Notes under the pieces: generated by a model
Told to the model about the DNA's origin: nothing
Database searches by the model: none
What the model saw: the letters and a program-made list of their open reading frames with translations, nothing else
Translations under genes and position numbers: made by a program
DNA from: Burkholderiales bacterium
Lineage (GTDB): Bacteria; Pseudomonadota; Gammaproteobacteria; Burkholderiales; Burkholderiaceae_C
Length of the DNA stretch: 64,000 nucleotides
Reading direction: 5' to 3'
Assembly (NCBI GenBank): GCA_016223165.1
Contig: JACRPO010000005.1
Coordinates: forward strand, 62,001-126,000
In this document: positions 3,324-20,130 of the stretch, in pieces
How positions within the stretch are numbered: position 1 is the stretch's first letter
Layout of the letters: each line of letters begins with the position of its first letter

Positions 3324-3619
3324 CGCACGTCTGGGCGAGCGGCCCGGATCGGGCGCGCGGGATTATGTCATCGCCCCTCGGTGGAGCCCGCCGGCCGGTC
3401 GGTGCACCGCAGTGGACCAACGGCGCCGTGGCGAAGTGGCGACGGGTGCGCTACGGCCGATGCCATAATGCTGCTTCGCACAACGCTCTTTGGGTCTCCC
3501 GTCGGCCGCCTGACCCAGGCGGCGATCAGTGGACCGCGCAGGTACCGAAGCCGCCTCACGAGGGCGCGCGGAGGTGCACCGATGGATTCTCGTCAGAGAG
3601 AAATTCTCAGAGGTTCAAG
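3324..3619. promoter_or_regulatory. Divergent intergenic region between sigma operon and ilvB
   Basis: No gene is supported here. Two CATAAT hexamers, which stand out in GC-rich DNA, could be -10 elements: one on the minus strand (3367-3362), about 40 bases before the sigma start, and one on the plus strand (3464-3469), about 150 bases before ilvB. Neither has a convincing -35. The long plus-strand leader shows no run of Leu, Val or Ile codons, so a classical ilv attenuator peptide is not apparent. Confidence 0.4.
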
Positions 3620-7199: not shown

Positions 7200-8063
7200 A
7201 TGCTTTCATCCATGAACGAACCCGCACGTCTCCCACACGGCACCGAGCCCGGTGCGCCGCTGGAGGCGGACGTGATCGAGCTGCCGCGGCCCAAGCGCCG
7301 CGGCATCTACGTGCTGCCCAACGCCATCACGCTGGCGGCGCTGTTTGCCGGCTTCTATGCCGTCGTGATGGCGATGAACGGCCGCTTCGAGGTGGCCTGC
7401 CTGGCCGTGCTCGTCGCCGCCGTGCTCGACAGCCTCGACGGCCGCGTGGCGCGCATGACGCACACGCAGAGCGCCTTCGGCGAGCAGATGGACAGCCTGT
7501 GCGACATGGTGGGCTTCGGCGCCGCACCGGCCCTCATCGTCTACGAGTGGGCGCTCAAGGGCCTGGGCAAGTCCGGCCTCATCGCCGCGTTCGTCTACTG
7601 CGCCGGCGCCGCGCTGCGCCTGGCGCGCTTCAACACCAACATCGGCATCGTCGACAAGCGCTACTTCCAGGGCCTGCCGAGCCCGGCCGCGGCGGCGCTG
7701 GTGGTGGGGCTCATATGGGTCATGGACGATGCCGGCTTCAAGGATGTGTCCAAGCTGCCGTGGCTCGCCTGGTCGGCGTTCGGCGTCACGCTGTATGCCG
7801 GGCTCACGATGGTGACCAACGCGCCTTTCTACAGCTTCAAGGTGTGGGGCGGCCGGCGCACGGTGCCGTTCGCGGTCATCGTCGGCATCGCGCTCGTCAT
7901 CGCGCTCGTCAACGTGCATCCGCCGATCGTGCTGTTCGCGATGTTCTGCCTCTACGGCCTGTCGGGTTACGCGATCTACGCCTGGCGCAAGGCCAAGGGC
8001 CAGCGCACGAGCGTGATCGCCACCTCCACCGAAGAACCGGAGGAGAAGGGGTTGCACCCGTGA
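7200..8063 (+). CDS. pssA: CDP-diacylglycerol--serine O-phosphatidyltransferase
   Basis: A 287-residue integral membrane enzyme making phosphatidylserine, the precursor of phosphatidylethanolamine. The CDP-alcohol phosphotransferase signature is complete: D-S-L-D-G-R-V-A-R near residue 80 followed by GEQMDSLCD. About seven hydrophobic segments follow the basic PKRRGIYVLPNAITL entry. The start is uncertain: GAGG at 7193-7196 is only three bases before the ATG at 7200, while an ATG at 7212 (starting MNEPARL) is 15 away. It lies between ilvC and leuA, a gene order common in Burkholderiales. Confidence 0.94.
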   Translation: MLSSMNEPARLPHGTEPGAPLEADVIELPRPKRRGIYVLPNAITLAALFAGFYAVVMAMNGRFEVACLAVLVAAVLDSLDGRVARMTHTQSAFGEQMDSLCDMVGFGAAPALIVYEWALKGLGKSGLIAAFVYCAGAALRLARFNTNIGIVDKRYFQGLPSPAAAALVVGLIWVMDDAGFKDVSKLPWLAWSAFGVTLYAGLTMVTNAPFYSFKVWGGRRTVPFAVIVGIALVIALVNVHPPIVLFAMFCLYGLSGYAIYAWRKAKGQRTSVIATSTEEPEEKGLHP

Positions 8064-8094
8064 GTTCCCGAAGGGAGGCAACGACCGAGCGTGG

Positions 8095-8100
8095 TACATT
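8095..8100 (+). promoter_or_regulatory. Candidate -10 element for leuA leader transcript
   Basis: TACATT lies eight bases before the leader-peptide ATG, so a transcript started from it would be nearly leaderless. An imperfect inverted repeat, TTCCCGAAGGGA, lies upstream at about 8065-8076. No clear -35 is seen at normal spacing, so the promoter call is tentative. Confidence 0.35.
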
Positions 8101-8107
8101 CGCCGCC

Positions 8108-8167
8108 ATGACGTTGCGCGACCTCCCGATCGGCCTGCTACTGCTAGGAGCCCTGCGGGTTCGCTGA
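8108..8167 (+). CDS. Leucine-rich leader peptide upstream of leuA (putative LeuL)
   Basis: A 19-codon frame, MTLRDLPIGLLLLGALRVR, ends in TGA 123 bases before leuA. Seven of 19 residues are Leu. Four Leu codons run in a row (8135-8146) as CTG CTA CTG CTA, and CTA is a rare codon in a genome this GC-rich. A perfect 10-bp stem follows at 8201-8231. This is the layout of a ribosome-mediated attenuator, in which stalling at Leu codons when charged tRNA-Leu is scarce would change downstream RNA folding. There is no Shine-Dalgarno sequence; the ATG may lie almost at the transcript 5' end. Confidence 0.7.
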   Translation: MTLRDLPIGLLLLGALRVR

Positions 8168-8200
8168 TCGCGCGTCTTCCACACGTCCCTTCTTCCGATC

Positions 8201-8240
8201 AACGGCCCGCCAGCGCAAGCAGCGGGCCGTTGTCCCTATT
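8201..8240 (+). terminator. Attenuator-like stem before leuA
   Basis: AACGGCCCGC (8201-8210) pairs perfectly with GCGGGCCGTT (8222-8231) around an 11-base loop. The following bases (TGTCCCTATT) are only moderately T-rich. GCGGGTT at 8155-8161, just after the Leu codons, could compete for the left arm (CCCGC plus the AA end) and so act as an antiterminator. This alternative pairing is my inference. Confidence 0.6.
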
Positions 8241-8290
8241 GCAGATCCTGCTTGCCACCTCGCCAAACCGACAAGCCCAGGGGCACGACC

Positions 8291-9832
8291 ATGACCGACA
8301 AACTGATCATCTTCGACACCACGTTGCGTGACGGCGAGCAGTCGCCCGGCGCCTCCATGACGCGCGACGAGAAGCTGCGCATCGCGCGCCAGCTCGAGCG
8401 GCTGCGTGTCGATGTCATCGAGGCCGGCTTCGCGGCCAGCTCGAACGGCGACTTCGAGTGCGTGCGCTCGATCGCGTCGCACGTCAAGGAGTCGGTGGTG
8501 TGCTCGCTGGCGCGCGCCAACGACCGCGACATCGCGCGCGCGGCCGAGGCGCTGAAGCCGGCGGCGCGGGCGCGCATCCACACCTTCATCGCGACGTCGC
8601 CGCTGCACATGGAGAAGAAGCTGCGCATGACGCCCGACCAGGTGCTCGAGCAGGCCAGGCTCTCGGTGCGGTTCGCGCGCAATCTGTGCGCCGACGTCGA
8701 GTTCTCGCCCGAGGACGGCTACCGCAGCGACCCCGAGTTCCTCTGCCGCGTGCTCGAGACGGTGATCGCCGAGGGCGCGACCACGGTCAACATCCCCGAC
8801 ACCGTGGGCTACGCGATCCCCGAGCTCTACGGCCAGTTCCTGCGTCACCTGCGCGAGCGCGTCCCCAACAGCGACAAGGCAGTGTGGTCCGTGCATTGCC
8901 ACAACGACCTCGGCATGGCCGTGGCCAACTCGCTGGCCGGCGTCAAGCTCGGTGGCGCGCGCCAGGTCGAGTGCACGATCAATGGCCTCGGCGAGCGCGC
9001 CGGCAACTGCTCGCTCGAGGAGGTGGTGATGGCGGTGCGCACGCGGCGCGACTACTTCGGCCTCGAGCTCGGCATCGACACGACGCAGATCGTGCCGGCC
9101 TCGCGCATGGTCAGCCAGACCACCGGCTTCGTCGTGCAGCCCAACAAGGCGGTGGTGGGCGCGAACGCGTTCGCGCATGCCAGCGGCATCCACCAGGACG
9201 GCGTGCTGAAGGCGCGCGACACCTACGAGATCATGCGCGCCGAGGACGTGGGCTGGAGCGCCAACAAGATCGTGCTCGGCAAGCTCTCAGGGCGCAACGC
9301 GTTCAAGCAGCGCCTGCAGGAACTCGGCATCGAGATGGAGAGCGAAGCCGACATCAACGCCGCCTTCGCGCGCTTCAAGGACCTGGCCGACCGCAAGAGC
9401 GAGATCTTCGACGAGGACATCCTCGCGCTCGTCGGCGACGAGAGCGCCACGCCCGACGAGGAGCACTACCGCCTCCTGGCACTGTCGCAGCGCAGCGAAA
9501 CCGGCGCACGGCCCTTTGCGAAGATCGCTTTCGCGATGGGTGGCCAGGAGTTCCACGCCGAGGCCCACGGCAACGGACCCGTCGATGCCAGCTTGAAGGC
9601 CATCGAGTCACAGGTGAAGAGTGGGGCCGAACTGCAGCTCTATTCGGTCAATGCGATCACCAGCGGCAGCACAGAATCCCAGGGCGAGGTGACCGTGCGC
9701 CTGCAACTCGGTGGGCGGGTCGTCAACGGCGTCGGCGCCGACCCCGACATCGTGGTGGCTTCGGCCAAGGCCTACCTGTCGGCGCTGAGCAAGCTGCACA
9801 GCAAGGTCGACCGCGTGGCGGCCCAGGGCTGA
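8291..9832 (+). CDS. leuA: 2-isopropylmalate synthase
   Basis: A 513-residue enzyme joining acetyl-CoA and 2-ketoisovalerate, the first committed step of leucine synthesis. The catalytic domain starts [18 protein letters not shown], has the metal-binding HCHNDLG segment near 205 and [14 protein letters not shown] near 235, and ends in the leucine-sensing regulatory domain (about 390-513). AGGGG at 8279-8283 sets the start at 8291 rather than the longer frame. It follows the ilv genes and a leucine-rich leader peptide, giving likely control by both feedback inhibition and attenuation. Confidence 0.96.
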
Positions 9833-20043: not shown

Positions 20044-20130
20044 GCGCGGGTGGCGAAATTGGTAGACGCACCAGGTTTAGGTCCTGACGCCCTCACAGGC
20101 GTGCCGGTTCGAGTCCGGCCCCGCGCACCA
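20044..20130 (+). tRNA. tRNA-Leu (anticodon TAG)
   Basis: An 87-base class II tRNA with CCA encoded. The acceptor GCGCGGG pairs with CCCGCGC (20120-20126), followed by discriminator A and CCA. The anticodon loop TTTAGGT gives anticodon TAG, reading CTA and other CTN codons. The variable arm and the GGTTCGAGTCC T-arm are normal. Only 37 bases separate it from the trigger factor ATG, so the two may share a transcript. It is the tRNA that would read the rare CTA codons in the leuA leader peptide. Confidence 0.96.

Follow-up and report, generated by a model that had tools for sequence, protein, structure and literature searches.

The window, that is, the whole stretch of 64,000 nucleotides that was analysed, carries the gene order ilvB-ilvH-ilvC-pssA-leuA according to profile searches, the name pssA resting on a score marginally below its cut-off (106.3 bits vs 107 bits). 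The pssA frame ends at 8063 and leuA starts at 8291, and a short leader frame and a hairpin occupy the gap between them. Among the loci returned from named records the nearest LeuA proteins were those of Piscinibacter, Rubrivivax and Ideonella, with 88-89% identity. A tRNA-Leu(TAG), placed about 12 kb away in the preliminary description of this DNA, was located at 20044-20130. By eye, a separate hairpin without a U-run (GCCGCCTG-ACC-CAGGCGGC, 3505-3523) was seen upstream of ilvB, about 35 nt past a TGCCATAAT box at 3461-3469. The features assigned around the pssA-leuA gap were the following.

8092 to 8100, plus strand: extended -10 box TGGTACATT (consensus TGTGNTACATT in 130 distinct relatives), without a recognisable -35 box
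8108, plus strand: predicted transcription start at the A of the leader ATG (leaderless), from the spacing to the -10 box
8108 to 8167, plus strand: putative leuL-like leader peptide MTLRDLPIGLLLLGALRVR, 19 codons with 7 Leu, followed by a stop codon; arrangement detected in 140 of 218 regions
8116 to 8175, plus strand: segments 1:2, core of the protector hairpin predicted to form without a stalled ribosome (fold of 8108-8212, -31.0 kcal/mol)
8135 to 8146, plus strand: putative regulatory codons CTG CTA CTG CTA, read in the sequence and in line with the CTA bias of the relatives' leaders
8155 to 8170, plus strand: segment 2, predicted 5' arm of the antiterminator (GCGGG ... TGATCG), from pairing
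8196 to 8210, plus strand: segment 3, predicted 3' arm of the antiterminator (CGATCA ... CCCGC), overlapping the left arm of the terminator, from pairing
8200 to 8232, plus strand: segments 3:4, predicted terminator hairpin of 11 bp followed by a weak T-run, from folding and covariation in relatives
8291 to 9832, plus strand: leuA, 2-isopropylmalate synthase of the TIGR00973 type (698.7 bits vs a cut-off of 598.7; profile query from the second codon, 8294)

The frame of 19 codons with seven Leu that had been claimed ahead of leuA is present at 8108-8167, as is the run CTG CTA CTG CTA at 8135-8146. A short frame with codons for the amino acid of the pathway is thereby found ahead of the operon; it is easily missed because it has fewer than 20 codons. 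The preliminary description proposed a comparison across relatives as a check, and the leuA-upstream regions compared here showed both the frame and its Leu codons, most of all CTA, to be conserved in many genera. The 218 leuA-upstream regions comprised 30 same-genus loci (the own genome among them), the locus L134, 80 loci from named records and 107 family genomes, each of the latter from a different genus; the sample sets partly overlap. The detector demanded an extended -10 box, a start codon 4-9 nt further on, a frame of 12-45 codons with at least 2 Leu and a GC-rich stem after it. Its tie-break preferred ATG, a G at -8 and many Leu, so the tallies of these three lean upward. The arrangement was detected in 140 of the 218 regions, in none of their 218 reverse complements and in 17 of 1090 shuffled sequences. 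After 8 identical sequences and 2 odd ones (L019, L223) were dropped, 130 distinct leaders were left.

In the family set 59 of 107 genomes were positive, one of them odd, and L153, L218 and L243 were added by eye; these three and L005 carry leaders that are visible by eye yet were missed by the detector. For the 80 named loci the leader was found immediately before leuA in 56 and 1.83-2.05 kb upstream of it, with another gene between, in 15. By eye, the frame that ends immediately ahead of leuA has a tail like that of an isopropylmalate synthase in 12 of the 15. Three more (L045, L051, L056) had too little flank, and no leader was detected in the remaining six of the 80 (L046, L085, L091, L100, L109, L110); a tree could serve to date when the attenuator was lost or replaced in them. 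L091, L109 and L110 are Variovorax records. In L028 and L036 an extra short ATG frame (ATGCCGATGCTC and ATGCCCATGTTG, respectively) was noticed downstream of the terminator and ahead of the matched leuA start; it may be a start further upstream or a different small frame.

The codon usage of the leaders was extreme. CTA made up 274 of the 598 Leu codons (46%) across the 130 distinct leaders, and every one of the 130 contained at least one CTA, a codon that the detector did not require. For 77 of these loci leuA itself was counted, and CTA amounted to 18 of 2951 Leu codons (0.6%) in leuA and to 164 of 348 in the leaders of the same loci. In the window ilvC, pssA and leuA contained no CTA among 26, 31 and 43 Leu codons, respectively.

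The TACATT reported at 8095 is present at 8095-8100 and is followed by 7 nt and then the ATG. Among the 130 leaders the spacing between the -10 box and the start codon was 6 nt in 63, 7 nt in 55, 8 nt in 4 and 9 nt in 8, hence 6-7 nt in 118 although the detector allowed 4-9 nt. Transcription usually starts about 6-7 nt downstream of a -10 box, and therefore the message should begin at the leader ATG. We infer that it starts at or beside the A of this codon, and the fixed spacing among relatives supports the nearly leaderless start that had been suggested. A G at -10 was found in 90% and a T at -11 in 62% of the 130 boxes, neither of them demanded by the search, and a G at -8, favoured by the tie-break, in all of them. 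The start codons were 125 ATG and 5 GTG, with ATG favoured in the same way. A -35 box was sought and rejected, as the best match (2.71 of 6 positions vs 2.65 in shuffles) was at chance level. An SD-like sequence was detected ahead of 1 of the 130 leaders vs 110 of 130 leuA starts, and the scarcity before the leaders is partly forced because the required -10 box occupies the SD position. Simple scanning for promoters and terminators gave no call at the leader, and no promoter site anywhere in 7900-8400.

When the own genome (7.3 Mb) was searched for CGTGNTANANT followed by 5-8 nt and ATG, three matches were obtained, and one in the reversed control; the pattern TGTGNTANANT with ATG gave none in this genome. 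The three matches were the leuA leader, a leader before aroG and one gene start. The last one (own genome C20:24272-24290, minus strand) precedes a full-length gene, presumably for a MarR-type regulator, and this gene may also be leaderless.

The preliminary description further claimed a perfect stem of 10 bp before leuA. The stem was confirmed, with a length of 11 bp instead (8200-8210 with 8222-8232). Its predicted energy was -26.4 kcal/mol, and none of 200 shuffles was equally stable; the stability of the whole 201-nt leader region was ordinary (z -0.82, 37 of 200 shuffles as good). The competitor of the left arm that had been proposed after the Leu run was likewise recovered, since GCGGG (8155-8159) complements the left arm of the terminator, and a second antiterminator helix can be drawn between TGATCG (8165-8170) and CGATCA (8196-8201). 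The duplex of segments 1:2 had an energy of -25.1.

Folding was calculated for different positions of the ribosome, with its edge assumed to lie 16 nt past the first P-site base. For RNA ending at 8212 the protector hairpin was predicted without a ribosome (-31.0), the antiterminator with the A site on the CUA at 8138 (-20.0, constrained fold) and a weak antiterminator with a stall at the CUA at 8144 (-11.8, constrained fold). With the ribosome at the stop codon nothing notable was predicted (-1.6), neither protector nor antiterminator. For RNA extended to 8240 the terminator (-26.4) beat the antiterminator (-20.0) in every ribosome state. The antiterminator must therefore form first and hold, i.e. 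the stalled state would be a kinetic one.

Two leader types were distinguished among the relatives. In group A (n=49, own genome included) the peptide ends mostly in R-x-R before a TGA stop, and in group B (n=81) it has ends such as HGRRR and the stop is mostly TAG. Base pairs were counted in alignments of 43 of the 49 group A leaders (A1) and 62 of the 81 group B leaders (A2), long or odd leaders being omitted. In the terminator columns 95.6% (A1) and 98.2% (A2) of the cells were paired, and in neither alignment did any shuffle or slid version reach the covariation score; the count of pairs with two-sided changes was not above shuffles in A2 (416 of 500). The protector 1:2 in A2 had 7 pairs with two-sided changes vs a shuffled mean of 2.7, a number reached by 0 of 500 shuffles, and a score of 0.162 vs at most 0.100 in slid versions, although two slid versions exceeded it in two-sided cells (20 and 27 vs 16). 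For the antiterminator 2:3 the paired cells amounted to 78% (A1) and 96% (A2) vs 17-50% and 6-50% in slid versions. Its column covariation was not above shuffles (262 of 500 in A1, 500 of 500 in A2); the core is common to the terminator and hardly varies. RNAalifold returned the terminator alone unless constrained, and no consensus for 1:2.

In addition, the pairing of each genome's own segments was compared with that of mixed ones in 5000 permutations. Own segments paired better for 1:2 (permutations as good: 7 in group A, 0 in group B), for 2:3 (0 in both groups) and for 3:4 (0 in both groups), the last being favoured by the way the segments were cut. The control 2:4 showed no such advantage (1206 in A, 1834 in B), nor did the control 1:3 in A (1578); in B, however, 1:3 gave 22 of 5000. 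Kinship among the sequences inflates all these pairing statistics, and the p-values are too small for this reason. We concluded that the terminator pairing covaries, and that the support for protector and antiterminator is weaker and mixed. Mutually exclusive 1:2, 2:3 and 3:4 hairpins were thus found as pairing potential and as its conservation.

Taking these observations together, we consider it very likely that leuA is controlled by a ribosome-mediated attenuator that senses charged tRNA-Leu and is run from a leaderless leader peptide. The leucine attenuator of the preliminary description is in this way borne out by frame, codon bias, spacing, pairing potential and conservation, all of them read from sequence, and the steps from transcription start through translation, stalling and termination to a leucine response are put forward as a model. 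An extended -10 promoter in the pssA-leuA gap would start the RNA at the A of the leader ATG or right beside it, and the ribosome would therefore load on a bare 5' end. When leucine is ample, the ribosome would reach the stop codon and cover segment 2, or 1:2 would form; segment 3 would then be free to pair with segment 4, and transcription would end before leuA. Under leucine shortage, the ribosome would halt at the CUA codons and block 1:2, so that segment 2 (GCGGG...UGAUCG) could pair with segment 3 (CGAUCA...CCCGC) as soon as this is made. With the antiterminator formed, RNA polymerase would read into leuA. The rare CUA codons may make the switch sensitive to a mild leucine shortage.

The weak T-run noted in the preliminary description holds for this genome, where 5 of the 12 nt that follow the stem core are T, and not for the system, as 126 of the 130 leaders have 6-11 T in this interval. 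Only 4 of 130, the window included, have 5 T, which is the lowest value among them. One alternative is that the family has a genuine attenuator whose copy in this genome leaks or is decaying, leaving leuA nearly constitutive here. We regard this as unlikely, because the window retains the frame with its CTA run, the -10 box and the predicted protector and antiterminator, and has a stem of 11 bp.

Less likely still is that the released leader RNA or its peptide acts in trans, with attenuation being only part of its function. A precedent exists in rnTrpL/peTrpL of Sinorhizobium, as described in the portion of the source consulted (PMC7298713), and the short, leaderless-looking message predicted to end at a hairpin speaks for this reading. 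Arg-rich peptide ends (RVR, RAR or GRRR before the stop) also recur among the leaders; the C-terminal codons overlap segment 2, however, and RNA pairing alone could therefore explain their conservation. A plain intergenic terminator of the ilv-pssA message, with a leuA promoter and the short frame as a bystander, is suggested by the position of the hairpin just after pssA, by its weak T-run and by L046, L085 and L100, which have leuA after pssA and no leader found, but seems very improbable, since the promoter-like box is conserved upstream of the hairpin, so that its message must cross the hairpin, CTA is present in 130 of 130 frames, and in 15 named loci the leader lies beyond an upstream gene with none adjoining leuA.

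An RNA model of group A gave one strong match on the own genome (99.1 bits; the next 16.3 bits). Searched order-wide, the group B model matched 59 of 200 genomes at E <=0.01, many by the hairpin part only, and we trusted no more than the top six, each of full length and with E 4.2e-11 or better. In 5 of 7 RNA-model matches examined the leader immediately precedes a gene with a start like that of L255. The L255 protein, itself one of these, scores as an isopropylmalate synthase of another subclass, the TIGR00970 type (698.5 bits vs a cut-off of 697.4), and its genome, G078, gave no leuA match at E 1e-150. With a leader standing before this alternative gene, the leader therefore seems to accompany whichever isopropylmalate synthase gene stands first. 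No Rfam (release 15) leader family was detected at gathering threshold in the window, where only three tRNAs were returned, or in 20 other loci. One candidate, BjrC68, was rejected: with 18.2 bits, below the cut-off of 39 bits, and E 0.012-0.017, it looks like a chance match via a common GC-rich hairpin.

The second leader found in the own genome (C18:610153-610171, plus strand; L244:1501-1519 onward) precedes aroG, whose product is a DAHP synthase (TIGR00034, 529.0 bits vs a cut-off of 173.2). It encodes the leaderless-looking peptide MRFAASFYFAYFWFSPLTAAGEAQASK up to its stop, and then come a GC hairpin and T6. Of 30 family loci (40 genomes searched), 26 gave a Phe/Tyr/Trp leader of this type, with a detector run without a shuffled control. 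The aroG leader is probably a Phe/Tyr/Trp attenuator.

Each ingredient of the proposed leuA attenuator is known already, namely a Leu leader bearing CUA in enteric bacteria and leaderless leader frames elsewhere. The enteric leuL consists of a Leu-rich peptide, alternative hairpins and a terminator before leuA. The leuL of Salmonella and E. coli resembles the present leader in its CUA control codons; the predicted leaderless start and the lack of an Rfam leader family at gathering threshold here set the two apart. In Salmonella, CUA is the control codon of the leu leader and its replacement by CUG lowered the sensitivity, as far as the part of the report consulted goes (PMC1183508). The excerpts on Sinorhizobium meliloti rnTrpL describe an RNA equivalent to the attenuator, the 5' end of which is the ATG of the leader frame (PMC7298713, PMC10117765). 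This trpL has its leader frame at the RNA 5' end, as is predicted from spacing here, but senses Trp, precedes another operon and belongs to an alphaproteobacterium. For Streptomyces lividans, Leu-run leader peptides before leuA and leuS were reported to be transcribed leaderless, and one of the two leaders, apparently that of leuA, to be without a typical terminator, in the sections consulted (PMC8079986); Streptomyces leuL, trpL and ilvL are likewise given as leaderless leader frames in the extracts consulted. The actinobacterial LEU element before leuA was modelled as a pseudoknot in which the Leu run pairs with the leuA SD, according to the portion consulted (PMC1262725). These actinobacterial systems differ from the present one, in which an antiterminator is predicted and a terminator hairpin is present, whereas the LEU element has no obvious terminator. 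In the ilvBNC attenuator of Corynebacterium glutamicum the leader start codon lies one nucleotide from +1, and protector, antiterminator and terminator hairpins are described, again in the text consulted (PMC11857589). The near-+1 start and the three alternative hairpins have predicted counterparts here, but that leader has codons for all three branched-chain amino acids and belongs to another operon and phylum.

In the open-access literature, in so far as its text was covered, we did not find this leader described for these bacteria, nor a leaderless, terminator-type leu attenuator for Proteobacteria, and an earlier description is possible. The leader would add a regulated start for leuA. It also allows a question that is mostly approached gene by gene to be compared over a large set, namely whether a leaderless message can support the tight timing between ribosome and polymerase needed for attenuation. 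The leuA and aroG leaders and the extreme CUA bias make this question of timing directly testable.

Outside the family, a leaderless-looking peptide with a CTG run was found before leuA in 12 of 23 regions, one per genome (L113, L114, L116-L120, L122-L124, L127 and L128), by a detector run without a shuffled control. A 13th leader (L133) and a 14th (L132, terminator type) stand before what appears to be the other isopropylmalate synthase gene, and no leader was found in the other 9 of the 23 regions. The leaders of other families often end in LLLRPAR or similar before the stop, contain few or no CTA and show no clear U-run terminator. Pairing of the Leu run with the leuA SD was not above the shuffled control in the 12 terminator-poor leaders.

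A joint reading of all these leaders is tentative, and our doubts slightly outweigh our trust in it: leaderless initiation may be a standing design of ribosome-mediated attenuation in this betaproteobacterial lineage, with an extended -10 promoter 6-9 nt before the leader ATG. With the -10 promoter fused to the leader ATG in this way, a 70S ribosome could load once the 5' end leaves RNA polymerase. The design would serve leucine, before leuA or another isopropylmalate synthase gene standing first, and the aromatic amino acids, before aroG. The CUA run of group B would double as starvation-sensitive codons and as a protector arm pairing with the UAG stop region. The sister families would have kept a leaderless-looking, LLLRPAR-type leader that lacks a clear U-run terminator and may be an older form whose output differs. 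By eye, the codons that follow the Leu run could in several families fold into a short hairpin (GCGC-NNN-GCGC or GCGCC-NNN-GGCGC, loop of 3 nt), and this was placed at the last codons of the LLLRPAR-type leaders L114, L118, L119, L120, L123, L124 and L128.
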